Shown one piece after another: positions 35,003-53,843 of a stretch of 64,000 nt of DNA (positions are counted from its first letter, which is position 1; each line of letters starts with the position of its first letter). Under the pieces are notes generated by a model, which worked only from the letters and a program-made list of their open reading frames with translations, had not been told where the DNA came from and did no database searches. Origin of the DNA: Enterovibrio coralii (GTDB taxonomy: Bacteria > Pseudomonadota > Gammaproteobacteria > Enterobacterales > Vibrionaceae); the NCBI RefSeq assembly GCF_001559595.1, contig NZ_LNTY01000034.1, forward strand, positions 310,001-374,000. The letters are read 5' to 3'. The position numbers and the translations under genes are program-made.

Positions 35003-35035
35003 AAAAAAGGCCGACAAATATTGTCGGCCTTTTTT
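35003..35035. terminator. Bidirectional terminator between tdk and mobB-moeA
   Basis: AAAAAAGGCCGACAA and TTGTCGGCCTTTTTT make a long stem with a short loop. It serves tdk and the convergent tup/mob operon. Confidence 0.94.
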
Positions 35036-36797
35036 ATATCCGGCTTTCTAACGGGATAATGGTGACTCTGTCGCCAACCTCCGCAGATTCCACATCGGGT
35101 GCGACTTCAATCAAGCAATTGGCTTCGTTCATCGACCGCAATATTCCCGAGCCTTGTGAACCCGTTGAGGTCACCTCTAATTGCCCATTGGAATTAATGG
35201 AATAAATACCCCGGGTGTATTCTGTTCTGCCAATGCGAGAGCGCACTTTTTCTTGGGTAATGGCGACGAGACGTTGAGGTTGCCAATTTACCTCGCCCTG
35301 CATTTTTCGAATGGCAGGTTCAACAAATTGCAAGAACGTCACCATCACGGCGACCGGGTTTCCTGGGAGTCCGAAAAAAGGCGTATTGCCTAACTTGCCA
35401 AATGCCAGCGGCCTTCCAGGGCGCATGTTCACGCGCCAAAAATTAATATCACCCAGATTACTCAGTACGGTTTTAATGTAATCAGCATCGCCCACAGAGA
35501 CGCCGCCAGAAGAGAGTATGATGTCAGCACTGTCCATTGCATTGGCGAGGGTTGTATTTAGTGCCGCTTCGCTGTCTTCAATTATGCCGTAATCGATAAT
35601 TTCGCAGCCTAGCTTTGTCAGTAGACCTTTTAACGAAAATCGGTTGGCATCATAGATACAACTTTGTTTGGGCGGCGTGCCGGGTGCTTGCACTTCATCG
35701 CCTGTAGAAAACAGTGCCACTTTTACTGTCGGAAAAACATCGGCTTTATCGATGCCGAGGGAGGCTAACATACCAAGCACGGGCGCGCTGATACGTGTAC
35801 CAATGGTAAATACTTCGCTGCCAACACGGATATCTTCGCCTGCTTGTCGTACGTTTTGTCCTGCGCGAATCTTGCCTTTTCGGGTATCAAAAGATACCGA
35901 GTTTGCCTCTTCTTCCGCTTGTTCGCGCATGATGACGGTATCTGCACCATCAGGCACCGGAGCACCCGTCATGATTCTCACGCACTGGCCTTTTTCGAGC
36001 GGCTTTGCGTACTGACTGCCTGCGAAGACTTCCCCCACTTTGGTGAACGTATCACGCTCAATATCGTCACTGCGAATCGCGTATCCATCCATGGCCGAAT
36101 TGGTTGAAGACGGGACATTCAAAGGTGCGACAACGGGCGTTGCCAGCACGCGATGACATATGTCGTCTAAGCTGGCTTGCTGTGAGAAGGTGGGCACATC
36201 AATAGCGGAAAGGATTTTTTCTCTGCCAGCCTCCACGGACAGCATGGTTGGAGAGAGAGAATCACAGGTTGCCGTTTGCGCATTGTGGCTTTCCATCCAC
36301 TTTAAGATGAAACCATGGATGCTAGATATATCGTTAAGTGAAAGCAGTGGCAGGTGCGTATCAGGTTTTGAATCACAGGCAATGGCAACGATATTGGCGT
36401 CTGAAGGGAAGAGGAAAGGTTTGTCGTTAGCCGCCCGGTTGAGTTCTATTTTGGGAAAGGTTTCTGTTTTGAATCCCTCCACCAAAATTAAATCTGCTTC
36501 ATTGTGATTAATGCGCTGAATTAATTGATTAAACGTGGTTTCTTCATCAGGTGTTTCGGTCATCAACGCATTTCTATAGCGGGAGCTTATCAGCATTTGC
36601 GATGCGCCCGCTTTACGAAGCCGGTAACTGTCCTTGCCCGGCTTGTCGACATCGAAGTCATGGTGAGCGTGTTTGATGAGGGCAACACGCACACCTGACG
36701 CCACCAACTGAGGAATTAACGCCTCAAGCAAGGTGGTTTTGCCCGTACCGCTAAAGGCTGCAAATCCAAGAACAGGTATCGAGCAAGTGACACTCAT
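35034..36797 (-). CDS. MobB-MoeA fusion for molybdenum/tungsten cofactor synthesis
   Basis: A 587-residue bifunctional protein. Residues 1-165 are MobB-like: P-loop GFAAFSGTGKTTLLE (about 11-25), KHAHHDFDVDKPGKDSYR, and VEGFK. Residues about 180-587 are MoeA, the molybdotransferase that inserts metal into adenylated molybdopterin: NSAMDGYAI, GAPVPDGADTVIMRE, FSTGDEV, SSGGVSVGDADY, and RPGRPLAFG with GLPGNPVAV. It is the last gene of the tupABC-mobA operon and overlaps mobA by four bases. Joining MoeA and MobB in one chain may channel the cofactor toward the guanine nucleotide form used by formate dehydrogenase. Confidence 0.93.
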   Translation of the reverse strand: MSVTCSIPVLGFAAFSGTGKTTLLEALIPQLVASGVRVALIKHAHHDFDVDKPGKDSYRLRKAGASQMLISSRYRNALMTETPDEETTFNQLIQRINHNEADLILVEGFKTETFPKIELNRAANDKPFLFPSDANIVAIACDSKPDTHLPLLSLNDISSIHGFILKWMESHNAQTATCDSLSPTMLSVEAGREKILSAIDVPTFSQQASLDDICHRVLATPVVAPLNVPSSTNSAMDGYAIRSDDIERDTFTKVGEVFAGSQYAKPLEKGQCVRIMTGAPVPDGADTVIMREQAEEEANSVSFDTRKGKIRAGQNVRQAGEDIRVGSEVFTIGTRISAPVLGMLASLGIDKADVFPTVKVALFSTGDEVQAPGTPPKQSCIYDANRFSLKGLLTKLGCEIIDYGIIEDSEAALNTTLANAMDSADIILSSGGVSVGDADYIKTVLSNLGDINFWRVNMRPGRPLAFGKLGNTPFFGLPGNPVAVMVTFLQFVEPAIRKMQGEVNWQPQRLVAITQEKVRSRIGRTEYTRGIYSINSNGQLEVTSTGSQGSGILRSMNEANCLIEVAPDVESAEVGDRVTIIPLESRI

Positions 36798-37378
36798 GAA
36801 AGGGCACCGTATTTTTCGAGTTCATCTGGCGTGTTCAGATTGATAAACGCATCATGTTCATCACTGAAGTCGACGAATTTGGTTTTGCACAGATCGTAAA
36901 GTAGGACGATTTTACGATCGCCATTGGCAAGGAATTGATCGAGACGCTCAAAGATGACTTTGCTCATCAAGGTCACCACAGGTTGCACGGACTCGCCGTC
37001 ATGGGCGACCACAATTTCTGTGTCTGCATCGATAGCGGCATACATCTTTTCTAGCAGGTTGCTTGGCAGGTTAGGGCAATCACAAGGCACAAAACCAATC
37101 CACGGTGTTTCGACATGTGACATCGCGGCATGCATACCACCTAATGGCCCGGGAAAGCCTTCAAATACATCGCTGAACACCTTGCCATATTGGGTATAGA
37201 TGTCTTGGTTTCGATTGGCATTGACGGCGATGTTTGCGCCTTGGGAAGAAAGGCGTTCGAAAACGTAATCAATCAGCGGCTTGTTGTTGAGTGTCACAAG
37301 GCCTTTGTCTTGACCGCCCATGCGTCGAGCTTGGCCGCCAGCGAGAATGACCCAAGTGGTTTCAGGATGCGAAGGCAT
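36794..37378 (-). CDS. mobA: Molybdenum cofactor guanylyltransferase
   Basis: Attaches GMP to molybdopterin to make the bis-MGD cofactor. 194 residues with the nucleotidyltransferase signature WVILAGGQARRMGGQDKGLV, GPLGGMHAAM, and the metal-site VPCDCPNLP. Its start overlaps the tupC stop and its stop overlaps mobB-moeA, so the genes are translationally coupled. Confidence 0.96.
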   Translation of the reverse strand: MPSHPETTWVILAGGQARRMGGQDKGLVTLNNKPLIDYVFERLSSQGANIAVNANRNQDIYTQYGKVFSDVFEGFPGPLGGMHAAMSHVETPWIGFVPCDCPNLPSNLLEKMYAAIDADTEIVVAHDGESVQPVVTLMSKVIFERLDQFLANGDRKIVLLYDLCKTKFVDFSDEHDAFINLNTPDELEKYGALS

Positions 37379-38063
37379 GATTGTCCTTATCGATAATATT
37401 GAGTTTTGGTTTATGTATCAGGCGTTGATTTTCGATAATCCATTGCTGATTGCAGCACTCAGTGAGTTGATTAGCATGGTGGCTGGTGATCACTAAACTG
37501 GCTCCACGATCCAAAAGATCGTCGACCATGATTTTCTGTGCGCCAATCGCATCGGCATCAAGGTTGGCACTCGATTCATCCATTAAGAGGATCGACGGGT
37601 TTAAAATCCACGCCCTTGCCATCGCGACCTTTTGTTTTTCGCCACCCGAAAGCAAGGAGATATGCTCTCTGCTTAGCGATTCCAGCCCAATCAAACGCAA
37701 TGCTTTCATTGTAAGCTGTCGCTTGGTTCTTTGACAGAAATGCTTTCCTTTCAGGCCATAAGCCACATTTTCTGCTACTGAACCGTCGAAGAGATAGGGT
37801 GTTTGGTGCATGTAAATCACACCACTTTGTCCTTTAAAACCCGCGAGGCGTTGGAGTAAAGAGGGACGTTTGAGGTTCAAGTGTCCGCTTGAGGGTTTTT
37901 GAATGCCCGCGAGCACCTTGAGCAAGGTGGTTTTGCCTATCCCATTTTGCCCAGTGAGGTAGATAGAATCGCTAGGACAGATGCGCAGTGACGGGATATG
38001 AAACAACAAACGATGCTTGTATTTCATTGAGAGATCATCGGCTTCTAACGTAATCTGACTCAT
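37362..38063 (-). CDS. tupC: Tungstate-type ABC transporter ATP-binding protein
   Basis: A 233-residue ATPase with Walker A LTGQNGIGKTTLLK, signature LLSGGEKQKVAMARAW, Walker B ILLMDESSANLD and switch ITSHHAN. It has no C-terminal molybdate-sensing TOBE domain, which separates it from ModC and agrees with the Tup type. Located directly after tupB; the gene symbol rests on the TupA and TupB neighbours. Confidence 0.87.
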   Translation of the reverse strand: MSQITLEADDLSMKYKHRLLFHIPSLRICPSDSIYLTGQNGIGKTTLLKVLAGIQKPSSGHLNLKRPSLLQRLAGFKGQSGVIYMHQTPYLFDGSVAENVAYGLKGKHFCQRTKRQLTMKALRLIGLESLSREHISLLSGGEKQKVAMARAWILNPSILLMDESSANLDADAIGAQKIMVDDLLDRGASLVITSHHANQLTECCNQQWIIENQRLIHKPKLNIIDKDNHAFAS

Positions 38064-38092
38064 CTTTGCACCTTATTCACCATCATCAATTG

Positions 38093-38791
38093 CTAGGTTC
38101 GCAAGTGGCCATTACCACGGCCAAAACTGATAACGAAGTTCATCGTCAGGGCGAGCACCAACAGAACGATTCCCAATGCGACACCTTGAGCAAACGCCCC
38201 TTTAGAGGTTTCTAACGCAATCGCCGTCGGGATGTTTCTTGTGTAATTCAAAATGTTTCCACCGACCATCATGGAACAGCCCACTTCCGTAATGATTCGA
38301 CTAAACGCCGTAATGACCGCAGCAAGAAGAGGGAAGCGAATTTCCCACATCAGGGTCACCATGGCACGGGGCACTGACGCACCCAGCGTGTACGCGGTTT
38401 CCCATGCGCGTCTATCGCTGCTTTGAAATGCCGCGTGCATCATAGAAACGAGGATCGGCAAGCTAATCAGCATTTGCCCTAAGATCATCGCTTTTTGCGT
38501 GAACAGCATTTTCCAATCGCCCATAGGGCCCGCGCGAGACAGCAACATGTAAAGCAACAGGCCGATAACGACGGTGGGCACTGATTGCAGTGTGTTGACC
38601 AGTGATAGCACGACCCACTTGCCCGGAATTTGCCAATAGGCGAGGGCGAAGCTGATAAAAAGGGCCGGCACTATCACTAGCGCAATGGCAATGCCGGAAA
38701 CTGAAAACGACACGCCGACGATGCCCCAGAGTGTGGTATCTCCACTGAAGAGCATGGCAACGGCCTGTTGTGTCGTTTCCCAAATTTCCAT
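38093..38791 (-). CDS. tupB: Tungstate-type ABC transporter permease
   Basis: A 232-residue membrane permease with about five to six hydrophobic helices. The BPD-type EAA loop reads RAWETAYTLGASVPRAMVTLMWEIRFPLL, and the C-terminal stretch EVGCSMMVGGNILNYTRNIPTAIALET is a mark of TupB proteins. Its first base is the last base of tupA, so the two are tightly coupled. Confidence 0.89.
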   Translation of the reverse strand: MEIWETTQQAVAMLFSGDTTLWGIVGVSFSVSGIAIALVIVPALFISFALAYWQIPGKWVVLSLVNTLQSVPTVVIGLLLYMLLSRAGPMGDWKMLFTQKAMILGQMLISLPILVSMMHAAFQSSDRRAWETAYTLGASVPRAMVTLMWEIRFPLLAAVITAFSRIITEVGCSMMVGGNILNYTRNIPTAIALETSKGAFAQGVALGIVLLVLALTMNFVISFGRGNGHLRT

Positions 38792-39603
38792 TAGCCTGCA
38801 TCCGCGACAAAGAGTTGTTGTCCGTTCACTTTAAAGTTGTCGATAAGGGCTTGTGCTCTGTCGGCGACGAGCCAGTCGCTCAATGCTTTGGCGCCTTTAA
38901 AGTTCAGGTCAGGATAGCGAGCTGGGTTGATAAGGATGACTTGGTAAGGGTTGAACAATCGCTTGTCGCCCTCAACCAGCACGTCCAAATCCAATTTACT
39001 TTGATACGCCAACCAGGTGCCTCGGTCGGTGAGTGTATAGCCCAATAGTTCGTTCGCCATGGTAAGTGTGGGCCCCATGCCTTGGCCGACGGCTTTGTAG
39101 TGGCTGAATGTAGGCTCAACACCAGACGCTTTCCAAAGCAGCAGCTCTTTTTTGTGGGTGCCAGAATCATCACCGCGTGACACAAACTCGCTGTCTGCTA
39201 ACGCCACTTTTTTTAATGCTTCGGCAATGTCTTTGCTGCCCTTGACCTTGGCCGGATCTGAGGTTGGACCGACCAAAACGAAGTCGTTATACATCAGTGC
39301 TCTTGGCATCACACCGAACCCTTTTTGAACAAACGTGGCTTCCGCATTCGGTGCGTGTGTCATCACCAAATCCACATCGCCGTTTTCACCCATTCTGAGT
39401 GCTTTACCTGTACCTGCTGCCATCACCTGCACGTCGTATCCGGTGTCTTTTTTAAACTCTGGAAGCAGAAAACTCAGCAAGCCAGAGTGGTAGGTGCTTG
39501 TGGTCGTTGCCAAACGAACGACGTCTGCTGCATTGCTGACGGCGGAGAATGTGAGCGCAATAGCCAAAAGAAAAGGTGTTTTCATTTTTTTTATGGAGGT
39601 CAT
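38791..39603 (-). CDS. tupA: Tungstate-type ABC transporter, periplasmic binding protein
   Basis: Periplasmic receptor for tungstate (possibly also molybdate). 270 residues from M at 39603, which has AGGAAGA seven bases upstream; the longer frame to 39639 is less likely. Signal peptide about residues 1-26 (KTPFLLAIALTFSAVSNA). The mature protein begins ADVVRLATTTSTYHSGLL, and the TTTST stretch is the oxyanion loop found in TupA. First gene of tupABC-mobA-mobB/moeA, with a sigma54 promoter at 39691-39706. The choice of W over Mo is by family resemblance, not proven. Confidence 0.9.
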   Translation of the reverse strand: MTSIKKMKTPFLLAIALTFSAVSNAADVVRLATTTSTYHSGLLSFLLPEFKKDTGYDVQVMAAGTGKALRMGENGDVDLVMTHAPNAEATFVQKGFGVMPRALMYNDFVLVGPTSDPAKVKGSKDIAEALKKVALADSEFVSRGDDSGTHKKELLLWKASGVEPTFSHYKAVGQGMGPTLTMANELLGYTLTDRGTWLAYQSKLDLDVLVEGDKRLFNPYQVILINPARYPDLNFKGAKALSDWLVADRAQALIDNFKVNGQQLFVADAG

Positions 39604-39690
39604 TGAGTCTTCCTGACATTGATTTCGTTGTTGTTCCATCCCCTAGTTGGAACGCGTGGTTTACCGGAGTAATTCCTTGCTAGAGGACTT

Positions 39691-39706
39691 AGCAACAAAA
39701 ATGCCA
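39691..39706 (-). promoter_or_regulatory. Sigma54 promoter of the tupABC-mobA-mobB/moeA operon
   Basis: On the minus strand TGGCATTTTTGTTGCT matches the -24/-12 consensus TGGCACGNNNNTTGCT at all key bases: GG and GC are exactly ten bases apart. The expected start site is near 39680, about 77 bases before tupA. An enhancer-like palindrome lies about 120 bases upstream (39822-39838). Confidence 0.82.
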
Positions 39707-39821
39707 TATTTTTAACATGTCTATTTTCATTTTTATCGTATTGATTTTAAACAATATGTTTGCATGAATAACATGGGTTAGTGGTTGATTACCTTGCAAA
39801 AGTGATGGTTAAAAATTGGAC

Positions 39822-39838
39822 TGGGACAAAATGTCTCA
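39822..39838. promoter_or_regulatory. Enhancer-type palindrome (copy 1) between tupA and the response regulator
   Basis: TGGGACAAAATGTCTCA, an inverted repeat GGGACA-N3-TGTCTC. An identical 17-base copy occurs 6.5 kb away at 46351-46367, also upstream of a sigma54 promoter. Likely binding site of the sigma54 response regulator encoded at 39879. Here it is correctly placed to activate the divergent tup promoter and could also autoregulate the regulator gene. Confidence 0.75.
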
Positions 39839-39878
39839 TGTAAGATAAATGTTAATTTCAGCAAGGGTTTGTCATGCA

Positions 39879-41261
39879 ATGAAGGATGCACTGCAGCAAT
39901 TTGGGTTCTCTGCGCTGGTGGTTGATGATGAGCCAGGTATGCGGACGATTCTTAACAAAGCACTGTCGAAAAAGCTCACGCAAGTTGAGACAGCGTCTTC
40001 GCTGGAAGAGGCGGAAGCCCTTCGAAAGCGAAACCATTTTGATCTTTTGATTGTTGATATCAATCTGCCAGGGCGTTCTGGCATTGATTGGCATGAAGCC
40101 TTTAACGATGAGTCACGCCGCAGTGACATCATTTTCATGACCGGATTTGCTGAGCTTGAAACCGCCATTAAAGCCCTTCGCGCCGGTGCGTCAGACTTCA
40201 TTCTCAAGCCCTTTAATCTTGAGCAGATGCTGCAATCTGTCCAACGCTGCCTTGATAAGCGCATGATGGAAAGGCGGAATGTGGCTCTTCAACGCGACGT
40301 CGCCCGATCTTTCCCCGTTGATATCATTGGCACTGCGCCAAAAACAGAAGCGATGAGAGAGATGATTGCTCGTCTTGCGCCGTCGCCTGCTGCGGTATTG
40401 ATTGAGGGCGAGTCAGGCACAGGGAAAGAGCTGGTGGCGCGTGCACTGCATTCGCTGAGCGCACGCAGTGGCCCTTTTGTCCCGTTAAACTGTGGCGCGA
40501 TAGCCCCTGAATTGCTTGAAAGTGAGCTTTTTGGCCATGTTTCAGGTGCATTCACAGGAGCGAGAAAAAGCAAAGACGGCTTGTTCCGTGTGGCAGATAA
40601 AGGCACTTTGTTTTTAGATGAAATCGGCGAGATGCCTTTGTCCATGCAGGCGTCACTGCTAAGAACGTTGGAGCAGCAAACTATTCGTCCTGTAGGCGCG
40701 GAGCGAGAAGTGAACGTGGATGTTCGCATCGTCGCCGCGACGAACCGAAGTCTCCAAGAGGAAGTCGAGGCGGGGCGGTTTAGAAAAGATCTGTTTTACC
40801 GCTTAAACGTCTTGTCTGTTGAGCTCCCGCCGCTTCGAGAGCGCATTGAAGATATCGGGCTTCTTCTCAATCATTTCTCTGAGGTGCTTTCCAGAGACAT
40901 GGGCTTAAAACCTGTGGTGTGGTCAGATGCTGAAATATTCGCCATGCAGCAATATGACTGGCCGGGTAACATCCGCGAACTGAAAAATACGGTTGAACGA
41001 GCAGTCTTGTTAGGCAAGCCAGATTTGGGGCATTGGCTCGGTGAGCAACCTTCGCAAGCAATCTCGCATTCCCTTGAGAGCCAACCGGACTCGCTCACTG
41101 ACGGTGGCTATCCTTTAGGTTGGGCATTGAAAGACGTAGAGCGCGCCCACATCGAAAAAGTGGTAGCGGCGAACGAAGGGAACAAGTCAGCGGCGGCACG
41201 CCAGTTGGGGGTCGCAAGGAAAACCCTCGAACGTAAATTCAAAGATTGGCTTTACGAGTAG
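39879..41261 (+). CDS. Sigma54-dependent response regulator
   Basis: A 460-residue NtrC-type activator. Receiver domain residues 12-125 with acidic pair DD at 16-17 and phosphoacceptor D60 (LLIVDINLPG). AAA+ domain with Walker A GESGTGKE (177-184), the sigma54-contacting GAFTGA loop (223-228) and FLDEIGEMP. The C-terminal Fis-type HTH reads NKSAAARQLGVARKTLERKF. I start at ATG 39879 with AAGGG upstream; the frame is open to 39849. The kinase gene follows 23 bases later. Four sigma54 promoters in the surrounding 7 kb make it the probable regulator of tungstate uptake and formate dehydrogenase. Confidence 0.93.
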   Translation: MKDALQQFGFSALVVDDEPGMRTILNKALSKKLTQVETASSLEEAEALRKRNHFDLLIVDINLPGRSGIDWHEAFNDESRRSDIIFMTGFAELETAIKALRAGASDFILKPFNLEQMLQSVQRCLDKRMMERRNVALQRDVARSFPVDIIGTAPKTEAMREMIARLAPSPAAVLIEGESGTGKELVARALHSLSARSGPFVPLNCGAIAPELLESELFGHVSGAFTGARKSKDGLFRVADKGTLFLDEIGEMPLSMQASLLRTLEQQTIRPVGAEREVNVDVRIVAATNRSLQEEVEAGRFRKDLFYRLNVLSVELPPLRERIEDIGLLLNHFSEVLSRDMGLKPVVWSDAEIFAMQQYDWPGNIRELKNTVERAVLLGKPDLGHWLGEQPSQAISHSLESQPDSLTDGGYPLGWALKDVERAHIEKVVAANEGNKSAAARQLGVARKTLERKFKDWLYE

Positions 41262-41284: not shown

Positions 41285-43318
41285 ATGAAGCTAATCCATA
41301 AATGGCGTCAGCGACTTCGCACTATGGTGCGTTACCGCCTTCTCGCTTTAACGTCCGTGCCAATCATCCTTACCTTGTTGGTGCTAATGGCACTGACTGT
41401 TTATTGGACACTTGCTTATACGTGGCAAAGTGCGCTGGCCGGCGTGCGTGCTGACCTCGCGGTTGCCAGTAACAGTATGGAAGTGCTTCAGCGCGAGCAG
41501 CGCAGTCAGCTTCATGCCATTGCCGATTCTTTCGATTTTCAAAACCAAATCCGTCAGCAAAACCCAGATATCCTAGCGTGGGCACAGTCGCGTGCGGATA
41601 AGTACGGCGTGGATTTTCTTGCCGTATATTCCGCAGATGACATTGAACGGCTCCCGCTTGCGTTAAGACAACCTCTACTCGAAGGCCGGGAGCGCACATT
41701 TTTCCAAGTGATGTCATCGGTTGAAATGGACGCCCTGTTGCCCGATTTGTCCTCGCAAGCAGAAATCATGTTGCGCAATGAAAACCGCGTTGAAACGCGC
41801 GGTTTGATCAGCCGAAGTTTGCTTCCTTTGTTTGACGAAAACGACAACCTTGAGTGGATTGTCGATGGCGGTATCTTGCTGAACAACAGTACCGAGTTGG
41901 TTGATGGCATTCGTGATTTGGTGTTTCCTGCGGGCACGTTGCCGGAGTCGAGCGTCGGGACGGTGACGCTGTTTATGGACGATATCCGCGTCAGTACCAA
42001 TGTGCCGCTAGATAGCAGTAATAAACAGGGGCGCGCTATCGGTACCCGTGTGTCCGACGAAGTGCGTGAAACCGTTTTGATTCAAGGCGATGAGTGGGTC
42101 AATCGCGCCTTTGTATATAACGCTTGGTATATTTCAGCCTATAAACCGATTCGCGACTTCAACAACAACGTGATTGGCATGCTCTATACCGGCTATCTGG
42201 AATGGCCGCTGATAAGCCAGTATCTGACCAACATTGTAGAGCTTGGCGTCGGCATATTGCTCACGCTTTTAGTATCCGGTTTTATTGTGTATCGCGGGTC
42301 AAAAGATCTGTTTCGTCCGATCGAAAAAATCCACCGTGTGGTGCGCTTGGTAAGGTTTGAACAAGACGCAAGGATCGGCAAGCTTGGGCTGGATCCCGAA
42401 CATGAGCTCGCGATCCTCGCACGGCAATTCGACACCATGCTGGATCAGCTTAAACATCAAAACGAAGCCATTCGCCAGAATGCGCAGGAGCTGGAAGACA
42501 AGGTTAAAAAGCGTACTGAAAGCCTGCATGAGAAAACGGCATTGCTCGAACAGAACATCAAATTGCTCGAACAAACTCGGAACAAACTCTTGCTCAATGA
42601 AAAACTTGCGGCACTCGGGGAGCTCACCGCGGGTATTGCACATGAAATCAATAACCCGACGGCGGTCATTCTCGGCAATATCGAATTGATGGAATACGAG
42701 TTGGGCAAGAACGCAGATTTGGTGTCTGAAGAGCTGACTGCGGTGTTAGAGCAGATTGACCGCATCAGAAACATCACTCGTAGCTTGCTGCAATACAGCC
42801 GCCAAGGCGGAGTGCAAGATCAAATCACATGGCAACACGTGAACCCAGTGATAGAAGAAAGCGTCACCCTTGTTCGTTCGGGGATGAAAAAGCACGATGT
42901 TGAAGTGATTACCGAGTTGGATGCCAAATGCAGCGTGGAAATCAATCGCCACCAGTTATTGCAAGTCTTGGTCAATCTCCAAATGAACGGCATTCATGCG
43001 ATGAATGATGAGGGTACCTTGATTGTGCGCTCGGAAGATTGGCTGGATGAAACAGGTAATACGATGGGCGCAAAAATCTCGGTGCAGGATTTTGGTTGCG
43101 GGATTGCCAATGAAAACCTCACCAAAATATTCGACCCATTTTTTACCACGCGCCGCTCGGGCACTGGACTTGGCCTCTCGGTTACCCAAGGCATTGTTAG
43201 CGGGTTAGGCGGCGAGATCAAAGTGGATTCTGAGATTGGGAAAGGCACGACGTTTACCCTTTATCTCAGAGACAAAATTCAAAGTGACAACATTGCCTCG
43301 CTGAAAGTGGTGGAGTAA
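41285..43318 (+). CDS. Membrane sensor histidine kinase
   Basis: A 677-residue kinase paired with the upstream response regulator. A first helix (LLALTSVPIILTLLVLMALTVYWTLAY, about 19-45) and a second one at about 320-337 (LGVGILLTLLVSGFIVYRG) flank a roughly 275-residue periplasmic domain that looks Cache-like. HAMP and a coiled-coil follow, then HisKA with H453 in GIAHEINNP and the HATPase boxes NLQMNGIHAM, DFGCGI and TGLGLSVTQG. The stimulus is unknown; location suggests formate, an electron acceptor or an oxyanion. Confidence 0.93.
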   Translation: MKLIHKWRQRLRTMVRYRLLALTSVPIILTLLVLMALTVYWTLAYTWQSALAGVRADLAVASNSMEVLQREQRSQLHAIADSFDFQNQIRQQNPDILAWAQSRADKYGVDFLAVYSADDIERLPLALRQPLLEGRERTFFQVMSSVEMDALLPDLSSQAEIMLRNENRVETRGLISRSLLPLFDENDNLEWIVDGGILLNNSTELVDGIRDLVFPAGTLPESSVGTVTLFMDDIRVSTNVPLDSSNKQGRAIGTRVSDEVRETVLIQGDEWVNRAFVYNAWYISAYKPIRDFNNNVIGMLYTGYLEWPLISQYLTNIVELGVGILLTLLVSGFIVYRGSKDLFRPIEKIHRVVRLVRFEQDARIGKLGLDPEHELAILARQFDTMLDQLKHQNEAIRQNAQELEDKVKKRTESLHEKTALLEQNIKLLEQTRNKLLLNEKLAALGELTAGIAHEINNPTAVILGNIELMEYELGKNADLVSEELTAVLEQIDRIRNITRSLLQYSRQGGVQDQITWQHVNPVIEESVTLVRSGMKKHDVEVITELDAKCSVEINRHQLLQVLVNLQMNGIHAMNDEGTLIVRSEDWLDETGNTMGAKISVQDFGCGIANENLTKIFDPFFTTRRSGTGLGLSVTQGIVSGLGGEIKVDSEIGKGTTFTLYLRDKIQSDNIASLKVVE

Positions 43319-46451: not shown

Positions 46452-46620
46452 GATAAGAGAAGGAGCTTATTACAAAGCCCGTTTTTCCAGCTTGATAGCA
46501 CTCACTGCTGACACGCTAACGGATTGAAAGTGAAGCCTTTAACAGCAGGGTTCCAGTGCACGCTTCTTAAGACGTCAACCATTCGCGTACAAGAGGGTGG
46601 TGACAACAAGGTGGAGATAC

Positions 46621-48387
46621 ATGGACGCAAACAACAAGCCGCAGGCGGCCGAGCTATCCAAGGTCGGTGATGCCAACGAATTAAAACAAACAGTTAAAGA
46701 GACAATGTCGACAGCAAAGCAATCAATTGGACAGATTGTAGAGACGCAGGCAGCGGATACTGCAAGTGCAAATGGCGTCGCTCGTGCAGAAGCGATGCGG
46801 CGTGCCGTGCGTGTTGGAAATCTTATCCCGCCGACCGTGAGTTTTGAATCTCGGGGGCGGACACTTGTTGTTGGTTCAGGGGAGCGGGTTTCGGGTTTTG
46901 CCAACCAGATGTCTTCGGAGCAACTGACGCAATGCACCTTCTTATACCTTGATGACTCCCAAACTCCAATTCCAACCATCACCCCTTATTATTCTTCATC
47001 CGTTCGTATTGCGGGTTTTCTCGGTGCATTTGACGTATGGGTGACTCATCAACTGACCGAGCAAAGCCTGTCTCAGATTGCGTTTGGTGGTCAGCATTTC
47101 GACCTGATTATTGACCTGTCTGAAGACGGCATACACGACGCTGAATTACCACCACTTGGCTACTACGCTGTGGGGCGCGGTTCGGTGTCAGAAACTGATG
47201 CGCTGGAGGCTTTGTCAGACACCATTGGTACCTTCGATAAGCCGAAGTTTTTCCGCTTAGATACAGAGAAATGCGCGCATTTCTCTCGCGGCCTTGAAGG
47301 GTGCACGCGTTGTATCGATGCATGTTCTGCTAACGCGCTGGAATCGGTCGATAACAAAATCACCATCAACCCTTATCTTTGTCAGGGCATGGGGTCGTGT
47401 GCAACAGCCTGCCCCACAGAAGCGATTAGCTATGCCTTGCCAGAAGCAGAGCATATCCAAAACTATCTCCATCAACTGCTGACGGTTTACTTGGAAGCGA
47501 ACGGACAATCCCCTGTTGTCCTTTTCTACGCAGAATCAGACGAGTCTGAGCTCGAGGCGAACGCAGGCTCGTTTCCTGAGAATGTTCTTCCCGTTCGAAT
47601 AGAGGAATTGGCTTCTGTTGGTATCGATACCTGGTTCAGCGCACTCGCCTTTGGTGCATCGCGCGTCCTTCTCTTTGAAACGTCGTCACTGCACGCCAAA
47701 ACGCGTGCGGTGATTGATACCGAGTTGTCGGCAGCGCACGCGTTTTTGACGGCCTTGGGATTGCCAGAAGACTGCATTGTCTTGTGCCGCAGTGACTCTG
47801 TCACTCAGTCAGCAAATAGCGGCCATGTCTCCAATGTCTGTCCAGACATTGTCATTGCTGGTTCAAAACGCGAGCGACTCGCAGCCGCCTTGGATGGATT
47901 GGCCTCCAACCGCAATGTGGAACCGCAAGTGAGTGATGTGCCGGTTGGCACGCCTTACGGCCGTATCGAGATCAATACGAACGATTGCACCCTTTGTATG
48001 GGGTGTGTCGCGGTGTGTCCGACTGATGCGTTAAATGCACTGGGCGACAAGCCGGGTATTTCATTCCGTGAGCAAGATTGTGTGCAGTGTGGACTGTGTG
48101 AAAAGAGCTGCCCGGAGTCGGTCATCACCTTGTCCCCCGGATACAACTGGGACGCAGACGCTCGTCAAACCCGATCCATTATTCATCAAGAAGCCGCTGC
48201 CGAATGTATTAGCTGCGGCAAACCTTTTGCGCCCGCTTCGATGGTCAACATGCTCATCGAGAAGCTGCGTAATCACAGCCATTTCCAGGAAGACGCCATC
48301 AAGCGGTTATCCATGTGCGAGGACTGTCGGGTCCGAGACATAGTGACTGATTTGGCGAAGAACCCTGAAAAGACACTCAAGCTCTAG
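46621..48387 (+). CDS. Polyferredoxin of the formate dehydrogenase cluster
   Basis: A 588-residue cytosolic iron-sulfur protein from ATG 46621 (GGTGGAGA ribosome site); a GTG at 46597 is also in frame. Cysteine clusters are CTRCIDACSANAL, CQGMGSCATACPTEA, CTLCMGCVAVCPTDA and CVQCGLCEKSCPES, i.e. two pairs of [4Fe-4S] ferredoxin modules, plus C-terminal CISCGKPF and CEDCR pairs. It is a large 4Fe-4S protein commonly found beside FdhD/FdhX-type formate dehydrogenases, probably carrying electrons or aiding cluster assembly. First gene of the sigma54-driven operon. Confidence 0.88.
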   Translation: MDANNKPQAAELSKVGDANELKQTVKETMSTAKQSIGQIVETQAADTASANGVARAEAMRRAVRVGNLIPPTVSFESRGRTLVVGSGERVSGFANQMSSEQLTQCTFLYLDDSQTPIPTITPYYSSSVRIAGFLGAFDVWVTHQLTEQSLSQIAFGGQHFDLIIDLSEDGIHDAELPPLGYYAVGRGSVSETDALEALSDTIGTFDKPKFFRLDTEKCAHFSRGLEGCTRCIDACSANALESVDNKITINPYLCQGMGSCATACPTEAISYALPEAEHIQNYLHQLLTVYLEANGQSPVVLFYAESDESELEANAGSFPENVLPVRIEELASVGIDTWFSALAFGASRVLLFETSSLHAKTRAVIDTELSAAHAFLTALGLPEDCIVLCRSDSVTQSANSGHVSNVCPDIVIAGSKRERLAAALDGLASNRNVEPQVSDVPVGTPYGRIEINTNDCTLCMGCVAVCPTDALNALGDKPGISFREQDCVQCGLCEKSCPESVITLSPGYNWDADARQTRSIIHQEAAAECISCGKPFAPASMVNMLIEKLRNHSHFQEDAIKRLSMCEDCRVRDIVTDLAKNPEKTLKL

Positions 48388-48396
48388 GAGACGGAA

Positions 48397-49011
48397 ATGG
48401 CGATGCAAGAGACGATTCACATCGACGATATCAGCAACGAAGAGAACCAAATTCGTCAAAGCATTTATGGCTTGCTGGCGCATCTTTTCAGACAACCACC
48501 GGATGAAGACACCTTGGAGTGGCTTTCAACGGTGGAAGTTGACGGCGATGAACATTCGCCGGGTATGGCAGCAGCATGGTCAGTGCTTAAGTTGTCCGCG
48601 TTTAAAACCAGCCCGTTTCAATGTGCAGACGAATATCAATTGCTGTTTATCGGCGTTGGCCGCGGCGAGATAGTGCCTTATGGCTCTTGGTACCTGACAG
48701 GCTCATTGATGGAACTGCCTTTGGCGATTTTGCGCCAAGATCTGCGCAGACTTGGGTTTGAGCGTCAGGAAGAAACGAAAGAGCCGGAAGATCATTTCGC
48801 AGCATTGCTGGAAGTCATGGCGATGTTGCTGGAAGACACAGAACCGACGGAACAGGCCGCGTTTTTTAATCGCCACTTGGCCCCTTGGTTTGAGAAGTTT
48901 TGCGACGACGTCAAGCGCGCGCAATCGTCGGTGTTTTACACCGCGGTCGCTGAATTGGCGAAACAGTTTTTGATTATAGAAAAGACCCGTTTTACACAGC
49001 GCCCTTGGTAG
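48397..49011 (+). CDS. TorD-family molybdoenzyme chaperone
   Basis: A 204-residue all-helical chaperone that binds the Tat signal and apo form of a molybdoenzyme, here most likely the FdhA product encoded downstream. Features are YGLLAHLFRQPPDEDTLEWL, the YQLLFIGVGRGEIVPYGSWYLTGSLMELPL stretch that corresponds to the conserved (E/D)YxxLF and PYxS-xY, and the DHFAALLEVMAMLL helix. AGGAGA precedes the ATG. Confidence 0.9.
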   Translation: MAMQETIHIDDISNEENQIRQSIYGLLAHLFRQPPDEDTLEWLSTVEVDGDEHSPGMAAAWSVLKLSAFKTSPFQCADEYQLLFIGVGRGEIVPYGSWYLTGSLMELPLAILRQDLRRLGFERQEETKEPEDHFAALLEVMAMLLEDTEPTEQAAFFNRHLAPWFEKFCDDVKRAQSSVFYTAVAELAKQFLIIEKTRFTQRPW

Positions 49012-49077
49012 ACAGCACGCGAGTTTGTCGCGGTGCAGTCATACCAGTCGGTACTGGAGAAGCATAAGGAGCAAGTC

Positions 49078-49284
49078 ATGTCGGATAGCAAAAAGGAAAA
49101 CGCAACGCAGGAGTCTCGACGTCAGTTTCTGAAGGGACTGGGCGTAGCAGCCGCTGCAGGTGCCGTTTCAACGGTCGCATCGACCTCAGTGCAAGCGGAA
49201 GTCACCGTGGTGAAGCCAGAGGAAGAAAAAGCGTCTGGCTATCGCGAAACGCAGCATATCCGCGACTACTACGACTCGCTATAA
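49078..49284 (+). CDS. Small twin-arginine signal protein of the formate dehydrogenase region (FdhX-like)
   Basis: A 68-residue protein starting MSDSKKENATQESRRQFLKGLGVAAAAGAV, a clear Tat signal (SRRQFLK), then VTVVKPEEEKASGYRETQHIRDYYDSL. The ATG at 49078 has AAGGAG upstream; an ATG at 49033 is in frame but less likely. It belongs to the short Tat-target proteins (TIGR02811 type) encoded before the large subunit of formate dehydrogenases. Likely a small subunit or assembly factor in the periplasm. Confidence 0.88.
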   Translation: MSDSKKENATQESRRQFLKGLGVAAAAGAVSTVASTSVQAEVTVVKPEEEKASGYRETQHIRDYYDSL

Positions 49285-49310
49285 CCCACTGTGATTGATG
49301 GAGTTTGATG

Positions 49311-52166
49311 ATGAAACTAACCAAACGTTCAGATTCAGTCAGTAAGGACGAAAAGCAGCTGGGTGTGTCTCGCCGAGCCTTTATGCGCAATACCACGATT
49401 GCGGCGGCAGGTGGTGCTGCGGCAGCAGGTATGTTCGTTCCGGGCATGATGAAGAAAGCCACAGCAAAAGATGTTGACCCGAACAAACCAAAAGAGATGA
49501 AACGCACCATCTGTACTCACTGCTCGGTAGGCTGTGGCGTTTATGCGGGTGTGCAAGATGGGGTTTGGACAGATCAAGAACCTGCCTTTGACCATCCTTT
49601 TAATGCAGGCGGTCACTGTGCGAAAGGCGCAGCACTTCGCGAACATGGGCATGGAGAGCGCAGACTCAAGTACCCCATGAAGCTGGTGGACGGGAAATGG
49701 CAGAAAATCAGCTGGGATCAAGCCATCACAGAAGTGGGCGACAAGGTGCTCGACATTCGTGAAAAGCTGGGTCCAGACTCGGTGTACTTCCTTGGCTCGG
49801 CCAAGTTCAACAACGAACAAGCGTATCTTTTCCGCAAAATGGCCTCGCTTTGGGGTACCAATAATGTTGACCACCAAGCGCGTATTTGTCACTCCACCAC
49901 GGTAGCGGGTGTCGCAAATACTTGGGGTTATGGTGCGATGACCAACTCGTTCAACGACATGCACAACTGCAAATCCATTTTGTTTATCGGCTCTAACCCT
50001 GCAGAAGCGCATCCCGTTGCCATGCAACACATTCTGATCGCCAAAGAAAAGAATGACTGCAAGATAGTGGTTGCTGACCCTCGTCGCTCACGCACCGCAG
50101 CAAAAGCGGATCACCATTTCTACTTACGTCCGGGTACGGACATTGCGGTGGTCTGGGGCTTGCTGTGGCATATCTTCAAAAACAACTGGGAAGATAAAGA
50201 GTTCATTCACCAGCGCGTATTCGGCATGGATGAAATCCGTGAGGAAGTGGCGAAGTGGCCACCTGAAGTGGTGGAAAAAGTCTCTGGCGCGACACCAGAG
50301 CAGATGGAAACGGCGGCGAAAATGCTGGCGCAGAACCGTCCAGGTTGTGTGGTCTGGTGTATGGGCGGCACGCAACACACCACAGGTAACAACAATACCC
50401 GTGCTTACTGTGTGCTGGAACTGGCACTGGGTAACTTAGGTAAATCGGGCGGTGGTGCCAACATCTTCCGTGGTCACGACAACGTGCAAGGCGCAACTGA
50501 TCTTGGTTTGCTGTCTCATACGCTGCCGGGTTATTACGGTCTGTCTGAAGGCGCGTGGAAACACTGGTCAAAAGTATGGGACGTTGACTTCGAGTGGATA
50601 AAAGGCCGCTTTGACCCCAATGAATACGAAGGCACCTTCCCCATGCACAGCAACGGTATTCCGGTATCGCGCTGGATTGATGGTGTTCTCGAAGACAAAG
50701 ACAAAATCGCGCAGAAAAACAATGTGCGCGCCATGTTCTACTGGGGGCATGCGGTGAACTCGCAAACCCGTGGTCAGGACATGCGAAAAGCCATGAACGA
50801 GCTGGATATGATGGTGATTGTCGACCCTTATCCAACCGTTGCTGCGGTCATGAACCAACGTAAGAACGGCGTGTATTTGTTACCTGCGACCACGCAGTTT
50901 GAGACCTTTGGGTCGGTCACAGCGTCAAACCGTTCGATTCAATGGCGTTCGCAAGTGATTGACCCGCTGTTCGACTCCAAGCCTGATCACGAGATCATGT
51001 ACTTGCTCTCGAAGAAACTGGGCTTCTCCGATCAGCTGTTTAAAAACATTCAGGTCAATGGCACCGAGCCAGTGATTGAAGACATCACCCGTGAGTTCAA
51101 CAAAGGCATGTGGACGATCGGCATGACGGGTCAAAGCCCTGAGCGCTTGAAGCTGCATCAGCAAAATTGGCATACCTTCAACTTTACCTCTCTTGAAGCC
51201 GAAGGTGGTCCTCTCAATGGTGAAACCTATGGTCTGCCTTGGCCGTGTTGGGGAACCCCAGAACTTGGCCACCCGGGCACACACATTCTTTACGATACCT
51301 CGAAAGAAGTGGCGCGAGGCGGCGGTAACTTCCGCGCTCGCTTTGGGGTGGAATATGAAGGGCAAAACTTGCTCGCTGTCGATAGTTACTCCAAAGGCTG
51401 TGAACTCGAAGACGGTTACCCTGAATTCACTGACAAAATGCTCAAGCAACTCGGCTGGTGGGACGATCTCACCGCGGAAGAAAAAGCGGCGGCAGAAGGC
51501 AAAAACTGGAAAACGGACCTCTCAGGCGGTATCCAGCGTGTTGCGATAGCGCATGGTTGTATGCCTTACGGCAACGCAAAAGCCCGAGCCATTGTCTGGA
51601 CCTTCCCAGACCGTGTTCCGCTTCACCGTGAGCCGCTGTTTACCCCTCGTCGTGACCTTATTGCTGAATACCCAACGTGGGATGACAAAGCCGATATCTA
51701 CCGTCTACCAACGCTCTATAAGTCGATTCAAGACATCGATGTAGCATCTGAGTACCCCATTATTCTCACCTCGGGCCGTATCGTTGAATACGAAGGTGGT
51801 GGTGAAGAAACGCGCTCTAACCCTTGGCTTGCAACGCTTCAACGTGAAATGTTCGTCGAAATCAACATCGTTGATGCCAACAATCTCGGCATTTTGGATG
51901 GTCAGGATGTGTGGGTTGAAGGTGCTGAGAAAGGCCGCGTGAAAGTGAAAGCCATGATCACGCCGCGTGTTAAAGAAGGCTTGGCCTTTATGCCGTTCCA
52001 CTTCGGTGGGGTGTTTGAAGGGGAAAGCTTGTTGCCGAAATACCCAGAAGGCTCTGAACCTTATGTGGTGGGTGAGGCATGTAATACAGCAACGACTTAC
52101 GGTTATGACCCTGTCACAGTGATGCAGGAAACCAAAGTCACCCTGTGCAAAATCTCAGCAGCGTAA
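49311..52166 (+). CDS. fdhA: Formate dehydrogenase catalytic alpha subunit, cysteine type
   Basis: Periplasmic bis-MGD enzyme that oxidises formate to CO2. About 951 residues from ATG 49311 (GGAG seven bases upstream; ATG 49308 is possible). Tat signal SRRAFMRNTTIAAAGGAAAAGMF. The [4Fe-4S] ligands are in TICTHCSVGCGVY with a fourth in GGHCAKGAA. The metal ligand is a cysteine at residue 193 (QARICHSTTVAG) in place of the selenocysteine of E. coli FdnG, so no TGA recoding is needed. Mo or W cannot be told from sequence, but the tungstate-type transporter nearby makes W possible. Confidence 0.95.
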   Translation: MKLTKRSDSVSKDEKQLGVSRRAFMRNTTIAAAGGAAAAGMFVPGMMKKATAKDVDPNKPKEMKRTICTHCSVGCGVYAGVQDGVWTDQEPAFDHPFNAGGHCAKGAALREHGHGERRLKYPMKLVDGKWQKISWDQAITEVGDKVLDIREKLGPDSVYFLGSAKFNNEQAYLFRKMASLWGTNNVDHQARICHSTTVAGVANTWGYGAMTNSFNDMHNCKSILFIGSNPAEAHPVAMQHILIAKEKNDCKIVVADPRRSRTAAKADHHFYLRPGTDIAVVWGLLWHIFKNNWEDKEFIHQRVFGMDEIREEVAKWPPEVVEKVSGATPEQMETAAKMLAQNRPGCVVWCMGGTQHTTGNNNTRAYCVLELALGNLGKSGGGANIFRGHDNVQGATDLGLLSHTLPGYYGLSEGAWKHWSKVWDVDFEWIKGRFDPNEYEGTFPMHSNGIPVSRWIDGVLEDKDKIAQKNNVRAMFYWGHAVNSQTRGQDMRKAMNELDMMVIVDPYPTVAAVMNQRKNGVYLLPATTQFETFGSVTASNRSIQWRSQVIDPLFDSKPDHEIMYLLSKKLGFSDQLFKNIQVNGTEPVIEDITREFNKGMWTIGMTGQSPERLKLHQQNWHTFNFTSLEAEGGPLNGETYGLPWPCWGTPELGHPGTHILYDTSKEVARGGGNFRARFGVEYEGQNLLAVDSYSKGCELEDGYPEFTDKMLKQLGWWDDLTAEEKAAAEGKNWKTDLSGGIQRVAIAHGCMPYGNAKARAIVWTFPDRVPLHREPLFTPRRDLIAEYPTWDDKADIYRLPTLYKSIQDIDVASEYPIILTSGRIVEYEGGGEETRSNPWLATLQREMFVEINIVDANNLGILDGQDVWVEGAEKGRVKVKAMITPRVKEGLAFMPFHFGGVFEGESLLPKYPEGSEPYVVGEACNTATTYGYDPVTVMQETKVTLCKISAA

Positions 52167-52181
52167 CGGAGGGAACACATT

Positions 52182-52790
52182 ATGGCTGATATGAAATTTC
52201 TCTGCGATACCAAACGCTGCATTGAGTGCAACGGCTGTGTGACCGCATGTTCAAACGCAAACTCGGAAGTGGTGACCTGGGGTATTCAACGTCGCCGCGT
52301 GGTAACCCTTAACGACGGTGAACCGGGTGAAAATTCGGTATCCGTGGCGTGTATGCACTGTGCTGACGCGCCGTGTATGGCGGTGTGTCCGGCGGATTGC
52401 TTCTATCGCACTGATGAAGGCATCGTGCTGCACAACAAAGAAACCTGTATTGGTTGTGGTTACTGTCTCTTTGCGTGTCCATTTGGTGCGCCACAATTCC
52501 CAAGCACTGCCGCGTTCGGTGAGCGAGGCAAGATGGATAAATGTACTTTCTGTGCAGGTGGCCCAGCCCCGGATGGTTCTGCGCTAGAAAAAGAGCTTTA
52601 TGGTGCTAACCGTATTGCCGAAGGTAAATTGCCACTTTGTGCAGAGTTTTGTTCAACCAAAGCACTGCTGGCGGGTGATGCATCGAAAATCTCCGACATC
52701 TTCCGTCAACGCGTGGTTGAGCGTGGTGCGAAAGGGGCAGGTTGGACAGACGGTGACGAGTTAGCGTACGACGCATCTGGTAACTCTTAA
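52182..52790 (+). CDS. fdhB: Formate dehydrogenase iron-sulfur beta subunit
   Basis: A 202-residue electron-transfer subunit linking FdhA to the membrane cytochrome. Four [4Fe-4S] sites are shown by CIECNGCVTACSNAN, CMHCADAPCMAVCPADC, CIGCGYCLFACPFGAP, and CTFCAGG with the later CAEFC. No signal peptide, so it is presumably exported with FdhA by the Tat route. The membrane-anchor helix found at the C-terminus of E. coli FdnH is absent. GGAGGG precedes the ATG. Confidence 0.95.
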   Translation: MADMKFLCDTKRCIECNGCVTACSNANSEVVTWGIQRRRVVTLNDGEPGENSVSVACMHCADAPCMAVCPADCFYRTDEGIVLHNKETCIGCGYCLFACPFGAPQFPSTAAFGERGKMDKCTFCAGGPAPDGSALEKELYGANRIAEGKLPLCAEFCSTKALLAGDASKISDIFRQRVVERGAKGAGWTDGDELAYDASGNS

Positions 52791-52835
52791 AGCATGGAAC
52801 GAGGCAGAGGAAGCTCTGCCTCGCAAGGAGGAGAT

Positions 52836-53843
52836 ATGTTACGTACATTGATCGCCATGCTTTTGGTGATAACCACATTCGGTGCTTATGCGGATCTTGA
52901 AAAGCAGGACAGGTTTAATGCCGATGGCGAGATGATTCAGCTGACCGGGGCTGAGTTTTGGCACAAGCTCAGAGAGGGCGAAGCCGGGAAATCTACATCA
53001 CCTCAGATGGAACACGCGCAACTTATCAACGTTGTCGGACAGCGTTGGCGAGAAGTTCGCAATGAGTGGGTGAGCCCAATGGGGCTGCTGTTCCTTGGCG
53101 GGTCTGCGGGCAGTTTATTGCTCTTTTATTTGTGGGCGGGGCGTATTCAGCTCTCTCATGAGCGAACGGGTAAAAAAGTGCTGCGCTGGACGCCATTTGA
53201 GCGAGCCATGCATTGGTTTACCGCCATCAATTTCCTCATCCTTGGCTTTTCGGGTGTGGTGCTACTTTACGGTAAGCACTTCATTCTGCCGATAGTCCCG
53301 CTTGATGTGTGGGGAGCCATCATCAACGGGGCCAAAGTGCTTCATAACTACTTGGGTCCGTTGTTTGTGTTAGGTCTGCTTTGCATGTTGATTAAGTGGA
53401 TGAAGAACAACTTCTTCAACAAAACGGACATTGAGTGGTTCAAGCAAGGTGGCGGTATTTTGCCAAATGGAAAGCACCCTGATGCGGGCTTCTGTAATGC
53501 CGGTGAGAAAGTGTGGTTCTGGCTGCTCGCTACGGTCGGTGTGGTGGTGTGCATCAGCGGTCTGGTGCTTGATTTCCCTATCTTCGGTCAAACCCGTCAA
53601 GACATGCAAATCGCCAACATCATTCATGCAGTAGCCTCGCTTGGGCTTTTTGCGGCGGCTCTCGGCCACATTTACATTGGTACCGTAGGGACGGAAGGTG
53701 CGCTCGAAGGCATGGCGACAGGATATGTTGATGAAAGCTGGGCTAAGCAACACCACAAAATCTGGTATGAAGAAGTGGAAAACGCGCCTGAATCCACAGA
53801 GCAAAAATCACAAGCATCAGGTGATGAGCAGCGAAGTACCTGA
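52836..53843 (+). CDS. fdhC: Formate dehydrogenase cytochrome b556 gamma subunit
   Basis: Membrane di-heme cytochrome that passes electrons from FdhB to the quinone pool. 335 residues from ATG 52836 with AAGGAGGAG just before; the 52794 start is not supported. The N-terminus has a cleavable signal-like segment (LRTLIAMLLVITTFGAYA) and an about 70-residue soluble region. Four further hydrophobic helices carry likely heme histidines in ERAMHWFTAINF, KVLHNYLGP, IIHAVASLGL and ALGHIYIGT. A terminator follows. Confidence 0.94.
   Translation: MLRTLIAMLLVITTFGAYADLEKQDRFNADGEMIQLTGAEFWHKLREGEAGKSTSPQMEHAQLINVVGQRWREVRNEWVSPMGLLFLGGSAGSLLLFYLWAGRIQLSHERTGKKVLRWTPFERAMHWFTAINFLILGFSGVVLLYGKHFILPIVPLDVWGAIINGAKVLHNYLGPLFVLGLLCMLIKWMKNNFFNKTDIEWFKQGGGILPNGKHPDAGFCNAGEKVWFWLLATVGVVVCISGLVLDFPIFGQTRQDMQIANIIHAVASLGLFAAALGHIYIGTVGTEGALEGMATGYVDESWAKQHHKIWYEEVENAPESTEQKSQASGDEQRST

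Follow-up and report, generated by a model that had tools for sequence, protein, structure and literature searches.

We analysed a 64,000-nucleotide stretch of the Enterovibrio coralii contig NZ_LNTY01000034.1 (the window, whose coordinates are used throughout), in which positions 35034–53843 hold an island made up of tupABC-mobA-mobB/moeA, a sigma54 response regulator (RR), a sensor histidine kinase, fdhD, a TaoR-like gene, the DUF3305 and DUF3306 genes, and genes for a polyferredoxin, a chaperone, a Tat peptide and formate dehydrogenase (FDH; fdhABC). Pfam and NCBIfam searches recovered every gene that an earlier note on this DNA had named (tup, mob, fdhD, the DUF genes, polyferredoxin, TorD, Tat, fdhABC, RR and kinase) at the coordinates given below, and added the TaoR-like gene, which it had not listed. 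The arrangement, its promoters and operators, and the likeness of the kinase to known sensors indicate that the island probably encodes a formate-responsive two-component regulon that joins tungstate uptake, cofactor genes and FDH.

The minus strand carries tupA-tupB-tupC-mobA-mobB/moeA, five genes that overlap or almost touch. TupA (38791–39639) is identified by its motifs and by four solved TupA-type proteins (E 1.9e-112 to 1.4e-62), and the NCBIfam TupA model NF041772 matches it at E 4.8e-71, below that model's cut-off. It has TTTS at position 45 and the selectivity Arg as Arg155 in an SRGD motif that aligns with the R118 segment of 5my5, and homology, TTTS and this Arg together predict that it probably prefers tungstate. 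TupB, the permease (38093–38791), is over the cut-off of NF038017 and below that of NF041773, and the ATPase in the TupC position (37362–38063) matches ABC_tran, with no specific family over its cut-off among the 25 matches listed. The guanylyltransferase MobA (36794–37378; TIGR02665) and a MobB-MoeA fusion (35034–36797; NF011060) are both over cut-off.

Divergently, on the plus strand, lies the RR gene (39849–41261), whose product is of NtrC type by Pfam and motifs, with a receiver domain and its Asp, an AAA+ domain with GAFTGA and a C-terminal Fis helix-turn-helix (HTH). Its start may instead be the ATG at 39879, which has a seemingly better ribosome site; most alignments of homologues begin at residues 6–20. 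The kinase gene follows (41285–43318, plus strand). Next come, on the minus strand, the sulfurtransferase gene fdhD (44234–45079; PF02634 over cut-off, TIGR00129 just below) and, overlapping it by 8 bases, the TaoR-like gene (43339–44241), which encodes an excisionase-type HTH (HTH_17, PF12728) and an oxyanion-type PBP_like domain (PF12727) and is over the cut-off of TIGR01764. The label TaoR-like reflects this domain make-up and not an alignment to a TaoR sequence; TaoR proteins share the make-up and are regulators of tungstoenzymes and tungstate transport. A weak match of the same gene to the defence family mad1 was read as a shared helix-turn-helix only.

The plus strand then continues with DUF3305 (45230–45685; PF11749), DUF3306 (45618–46403; PF11748), the polyferredoxin (46597–48387; Fer4 families), a TorD/DmsD-type chaperone (48397–49011; PF02613), the formate dehydrogenase region Tat peptide (49033–49284, with a likely start at 49078; TIGR02811), the catalytic subunit FdhA (49305–52166; Pfam and NCBIfam), the FDH3-type iron-sulfur subunit FdhB (52182–52790; NF038355) and the cytochrome b subunit FdhC (52794–53843; TIGR01583). 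As NF038355, TIGR02811 and TIGR01583 are all over cut-off, the enzyme is classed as an FDH3-type periplasmic formate dehydrogenase. The closest solved relative of FdhA is 9vap, position 195 is cysteine and not selenocysteine, and the metal may be W or Mo, between which the sequence does not decide. The description of the island as self-contained was an overstatement, because moaA lies on another contig and a separate modA lies outside the island.

Four sigma54 promoters had been proposed, one for each transcription unit of the metabolic part, and a scan of 127,970 window positions with a matrix made from consensus frequencies bears this out. Ranks 1–3 fall to the sites before DUF3305-DUF3306 (TGGTATGTGTTTTGCT, 45148–45163, plus strand), before tupABC-mobA-mobB/moeA (TGGCATTTTTGTTGCT, 39691–39706, minus strand) and before the polyferredoxin-chaperone-Tat-fdhABC unit (TGGTTCGCTACTTGCT, 46436–46451, plus strand), each of which has a counterpart in Vibrio parahaemolyticus (at VP1508, tupA and VP1510, respectively; available part of PMC9817140). 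The site before fdhD and the TaoR-like gene (TGGAACAGGAATTGCT, 45120–45135, minus strand) ranks 13th, and 22 window positions score at least 11.3. With the upstream stretches making up 0.5% of positions, all three top sites would lie there by chance with a probability of ~1e-7, assuming independent positions. All four sites are conserved among relatives: the tupA promoter is present in 21 of 23 relative loci, with altered spacer bases in distant genera, and the best score upstream of fdhD is at least 9.7 in 18 of 18 loci. Before the RR gene and before fdhA the best scores in relative loci (at most 6.9 and 9.2) are below threshold. Scores of 13.5, 10.9 and 10.3 upstream of the kinase gene in three loci (L058, L060 and L052, respectively) belong to sites that, judged by distance, probably sit inside RR coding sequence.

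The island also contains three copies of a palindrome, TGGGACAWWWTGTCYCA, in two regions, as had been noticed before. One candidate operator (TGGGACAAAATGTCTCA, 39822–39838) lies between tupA and the RR gene; the other two form a tandem pair at the 3' end of the DUF3306 gene, the first at 46329–46345 (AGGGACATTTTGTCCGA) and the second, again TGGGACAAAATGTCTCA, at 46351–46367, which is offset by 22 nt from its partner and stands 85 nt ahead of the polyferredoxin promoter. The earlier note had recommended a search of the genome and of related islands. In the 5.5 Mb genome exact GGGACAWWWTGTCYC occurs twice, both times in the island; when one mismatch is allowed, the remaining island site is recovered along with a single site within coding sequence. 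Only such near-perfect sites are meaningful, because allowing up to two mismatches gives 30 forward and 41 reverse matches, near the numbers for a reversed-pattern control (29 and 24). Ten other palindrome-like sites of the genome scored 6.2 to 15.8, compared with 19.6–26.5 for the island sites. Genes were read around three of the ten: the best site lies inside a coding sequence, and the second-best (15.3; L065, 277–293) overlaps the first codon of a frame that resembles a membrane protein and has no good sigma54 site adjoining. In relatives that have the RR the operator is kept between tupA and the RR gene and before the polyferredoxin gene, where it is often paired. In a hold-out test of the operator matrix, tupA regions scored at least 17 in 16 of 17 loci, and the distance from operator to polyferredoxin promoter is 85–87 nt in most loci measured (95–96 in L095 and L097).

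Some further readings of these sequences were set aside. A palindrome between fdhD and DUF3305 (GGGCGGAAAACAGCCC) was dropped as an operator since it is absent from the relatives compared, and no claim is made for helical phasing of the tupA operator-promoter distance, for which the best period was 11.64 and the value at 10.5 only 0.16. The operator beside the RR gene lies inside a possible sigma70 promoter of that gene (TTGGAC ... TGTAAGAT, 39817–39848, read by eye), an overlap that would allow autoregulation. An operator-like sequence also occurs within mobB-moeA in 12 of 23 loci at up to one mismatch (for example at 892 in L056 and 975 in L038), and likewise at 6081 in L139 and 6109 in L140; perhaps it is only a conserved protein motif.

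Comparison of genomes with and without the RR links promoters and operators to this regulator. Among 296 genomes of the family, 208 have both RR and FdhA, 5 RR only, 15 FdhA only and 68 neither (sets compared by hand). Of the 15, G308 has a broken RR frame and G029 a fragmented RR; the other 13, in which nothing closer than paralogues with 41% identity or less is present, constitute the RR-negative set; the RR-positive set is 46 loci from up to 38 genomes, G308 and G029 included, some genomes giving two loci. In RR-positive loci the tupA region has the promoter in 36 of 38 and the operator in 37 of 38. Promoters are found before fdhD in 24/35, before DUF3305 in 28/33 and in the 900 nt upstream of DUF3306 in 27/32, with the operator in none of these regions (0/35 and 0/33, at a score of at least 17, and 0/32); at a score of at least 14 it appears in 2 of the 35 fdhD loci and 2 of the 33 DUF3305 loci. 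The polyferredoxin region has the operator in 27/33 and the promoter in 18/33. Extrapolated gene starts are part of the reason for this low promoter count, and scans of whole loci recover the promoter in L095, L097, L098 and L144, all of which the count had missed. The RR-negative genomes have no sigma54 site (0/13 each) and no operator (0/13 each) before tupA, fdhD, DUF3305/3306 or the polyferredoxin gene, and their two weak operator matches (14.4 and 14.1) are both inside coding sequences. As a control, sigma54 sites upstream of fdhA were counted in 0/30 RR-positive and 1/13 RR-negative cases. In all 13 RR-negative genomes (L118–L129 and L101) tup-mob lies directly behind fdhD on the same strand, and co-expression may be kept there by operon fusion instead. 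Where FDH loci lie ~10 to 114 kb from the RR gene, six of seven retain a strong operator, placed before the polyferredoxin gene (L094–L098 and L100); the seventh, L099, has weaker sites only, one of them before DUF3305.

The signal is suggested by the sensor. The kinase has a periplasmic sCache_3_3 domain (PF17202, E 7.6e-28, over cut-off), and a profile of 12 kinases compared with the PDB gave as first matches 8py0 and 8py1 (E 5e-4 and 1.3e-3), chemoreceptor domains that were both solved with formate according to their titles. With a structural model of the kinase (predicted local distance difference test, pLDDT, 89.5), Foldseek placed 8py0/8py1 at ranks 3–7, behind 9heh and 6iop. The available part of PMC12501870 reports that R142, T145 and T158 of PacF and R115 of Atu0526 are needed for formate binding. 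Mapped through 8py0/8py1, the PacF triad aligns with R235, T238 (+3) and T254 (in an RAxGT turn) of the window kinase; among 24 kinases the Arg is conserved in 24 and each Thr in 23, the other having Ser. In short-loop kinases the spacing of Arg, +3 and +16 is the same as in 8py0, 8py1 and the PacF numbering. A formate-binding sCache_3_3 receptor is also described in the excerpt of PMC12415202. These residues are thus putative formate-binding residues, and the kinase probably detects periplasmic formate, a prediction made from its sequence.

Published expression data bear on the same genes. Peaks from RpoN chromatin immunoprecipitation (ChIP) in V. cholerae reportedly have Dong and Mekalanos (2012) as their source. 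In the available part of PMC9817140 such peaks are marked for the counterparts of VP1501, VP1508 and VP1510, and RNA-seq of a V. parahaemolyticus rpoN mutant gives log2 changes of -1.45 for VP1501, -1.84 for VP1508 and -3.17 to -4.75 for VP1510–1515. The comparison of transcripts with an rpoN mutant that had been suggested as a check thus exists in print for V. parahaemolyticus, with a fall for the units of three of the four promoters. The sigma54 sites listed there for VP1501 and VP1508 have the same 16-base cores as those read in the relative locus L132. VP1501, 'hypothetical' in that table, is TupA in the excerpt of PMC5517513, and VP1502 and VP1503 are a sigma54 RR and a kinase in that of PMC10469919. 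In V. cholerae riboflavin mutants VC1510–1518 and VC1523–1524 rise together (PMC5816637, in part), the latter two being tupA-tupB as judged by position and annotation, and VP1512–1516 are among the 25 most changed genes of a further study (PMC5437538, likewise). The literature searched, from which subscription journals were mostly absent, names no activator, operator or kinase ligand for these genes, and an RR-side counterpart of the rpoN data was not found in it.

Beyond the Vibrionaceae, Shewanella, Aeromonas and Sedimenticola have relatives that carry both tup and the operator, and in Thiothrix the operators are weaker. Distant homologues in Alpha- and Betaproteobacteria sit beside FDH genes, some of other types. 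The RR/kinase pair stands beside FDH-N genes in Azospirillum, where two operators and a sigma54 site precede fdnG. The Agrobacterium pair adjoins genes for an NAD-type FDH and FdhD; a transporter gene there, with two operators and a strong sigma54 site in front of it, encodes a relative of lactate and oxalate/formate carriers that stays below the cut-offs of those models. A Rhizobium locus has the same layout (DNA and tblastn). In Variovorax the pair, with an operator pair, is next to FDH3 genes. Among 55 sequences scanned, 17 of 20 close operator pairs (12–60 nt), from all three classes (Alpha-, Beta- and Gammaproteobacteria), are spaced 22 nt apart, one genome being counted twice in this total (L042 and L138).

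We propose that periplasmic formate would bind the sCache_3_3 domain of the kinase, as its homology and conserved binding residues suggest, and that the kinase would phosphorylate the RR, as expected for this family. The RR would then assemble on the TGGGACAWWWTGTCYCA operators, consistent with their conservation and with the joint absence of RR and operators, and with ATP hydrolysis would open the sigma54 promoters of the tup-mob, fdhD/TaoR-like, DUF3305/3306 and polyferredoxin-chaperone-fdhABC units. Metal supply, maturation of bis-molybdopterin guanine dinucleotide (bis-MGD) and enzyme would in this way be made together once the substrate appears, and the TaoR-like protein would likely add a second, metal-dependent check. 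The fdhD and DUF3305 promoters would probably be reached by looping from operators ~1.2 kb away. The Sedimenticola locus L155 has, in the fdhD-DUF3305 region, an operator flanked by two divergent sigma54 sites, which suggests that one enhancer in Vibrionaceae serves both promoters from a distance. The earlier idea of one sigma54 regulon that includes tungstate import is well supported by promoters and an operator that are conserved and that are absent together from genomes without the RR, and by the published rpoN RNA-seq, as far as that source was available. Its companion, that a single signal turns everything on, has to be qualified because the fdhD unit includes the TaoR-like gene as a further regulator, and because most fdhD and DUF3305 promoters lack a clear operator of their own.

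Several observations weigh against this formate-responsive regulon. The fdhD and DUF3305 promoters are mostly without a clear operator of their own, and both the binding of the RR to the operator and the ligand of the kinase are predictions. The match to 8py0/8py1 is numerically weak (the E values above, over ~70 residues, with a Foldseek template-modelling score by query length of 0.29–0.32). A sigma54-like sequence alone is no proof, because control regions also carry such sites: they occur upstream of torD in 7/33 RR-positive and 4/13 RR-negative cases and inside tupA coding sequence in 20/38 and 7/13. The RR-negative comparison counts a few events and not 13, because on the FdhA tree the 13 genomes fall into three clusters (of 7, 5 and 1); two or three changes fit this best, and there may have been only one. 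L049 and L050 keep the operator beside the RR gene but have no tupA sigma54 site; in these two similar genomes the stretch from tupA to the RR gene measures 441 and 864 bases, compared with 275–458 in others. Finally, RpoN alone gave no shift of the VP1510 promoter in an electrophoretic mobility shift assay, and the authors called the control indirect (PMC9817140, available part).

The same two-component regulon could be set by another signal, the kinase sensing W/Mo shortage, another small carboxylate or the redox state, with FDH one target of several. We regard this as unlikely, although it draws on real observations: tupA is the divergent neighbour of the RR gene in all 23 relative loci, including those that have FDH at another place; the gene divergent to the RR gene in Azospirillum encodes a molybdate-binding protein, which would also fit a metal signal; the V. 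cholerae genes respond to riboflavin-pathway mutations (PMC5816637, in part); and Cache domains bind many carboxylates (PMC12415202, in part). On the other side, the Agrobacterium, Rhizobium and Variovorax loci have FDH and no tup genes within ~10 kb, and the formate triad is retained in the sensor, for which the solved structures closest in sequence were crystallised with formate. A different enhancer-binding protein might drive the FDH promoters, leaving only tup to the neighbouring RR. That most fdhD and DUF3305 promoters have no operator of their own would suit this, as would the number of sigma54 activators per genome (up to 26 candidate frames scored), but it is very improbable given that in most loci measured the polyferredoxin promoter has the operator 85–87 nt ahead of it, even far from the RR gene, and that the promoters are missing in RR-less genomes. 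Recognition of the palindrome by the TaoR-like regulator in place of the RR is hardly credible: the palindrome does lie in the same island, and TaoR-type proteins act at tup promoters, but it sits at the usual enhancer distance from sigma54 promoters and is kept in five loci (L056, L136, L144, L095 and L100) with no TaoR-like gene in the stretch fetched, the rest of those genomes not having been searched.

Returning to a formate-responsive RR, formate is the common denominator of the distant loci, Thiocystis excepted. On balance we favour the view that the pair is a portable two-component formate switch of Alpha-, Beta- and Gammaproteobacteria, which would read periplasmic formate and, by way of sigma54 and operators that often come in pairs 22 bp apart, act on the formate enzyme of its host (FDH3, FDH-N, possibly an oxalate/formate-type transporter), as well as on tungstate supply in Vibrionaceae and relatives. 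Two loci also weigh against the formate-responsive regulon. A Thiocystis homologue (48% for the RR) has DabAB carbon-uptake genes next to it, lacks the operator and comes with a kinase that has no Cache domain, and the Variovorax operator pair has no accompanying sigma54 site above 13.

The island is not favoured as foreign DNA. The GC content is 50.6% in the island, 48.5% in one flank and 49.1% in the other; in L038, L039 and L060 the island is flanked by tdk and mtn; and a search of 72,556 plasmid records gave two matches at E 1e-120, both distant. Of its neighbours, the gene at 32702–34282 encodes a Tet(35)-type Na+/H+ antiporter that scores 542 bits, under the curated cut-off of 750, and is probably housekeeping. 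Downstream, a gene resembling methylthioadenosine/S-adenosylhomocysteine (MTA/SAH) nucleosidase is split (54004–54769), with 54004–54324 matching the start and 54482–54769 the end of the Phosphorylase superfamily model.

Published gene tables already contained parts of the regulon, but the literature searched did not yield the DNA site, the protein that owns it and the likely signal in combination; the formate-sensor likeness of the kinase and the distant homologues beside FDH genes with operators 22 bp apart are new here. A regulon known from published data, as far as available, by its sigma factor only is thereby supplied with a likely activator, DNA site and ligand, and a 'hypothetical protein' of the rpoN table becomes a tungstate importer component. 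If formate is the ligand, import of a trace metal would be switched on by the substrate of the metalloenzyme and not by metal shortage. Many marine bacteria retain the RR/kinase pair. As the RR is present in 213 of the 296 family genomes, the operator allows large-scale mapping of the regulon.

The island resembles several known systems. E. coli FhlA is a one-component sigma54 activator that senses cytoplasmic formate and drives formate-enzyme genes. The island likewise has a sigma54 activator with a probable link to formate, but there a receiver-type RR works with a kinase whose sensing domain is periplasmic, and the pair is predicted to control a tungstate importer as well as a respiratory FDH; the receiver domain and a score of 240 with the FhlA model (cut-off 830) place the RR outside the FhlA type. 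Smart (2009) reportedly described TupABC with FDH in Campylobacter, with tungstate uptake tied to FDH or a tungstoenzyme, and Rajeev (2019) is said to have linked regulators with an excisionase-type HTH and a PBP domain to a tungstoenzyme; here, uptake is additionally placed under sigma54 and a two-component system. The V. parahaemolyticus VP1501–VP1515 and V. cholerae RpoN-dependent FDH clusters are like the island, with orthologous gene order, and in the published portion available to us VP1501 and VP1508 are each a 'hypothetical protein' and no activator, operator or signal is assigned. The sensor domain is of the Cache_3 type found in PacF, Atu0526, McpF and 8py0/8py1, and the Arg of PacF and Atu0526 and the two Thr of PacF have counterparts in the window kinase and in 8py0/8py1; PacF, Atu0526 and McpF are chemotaxis receptors, whereas the window protein is a histidine kinase.

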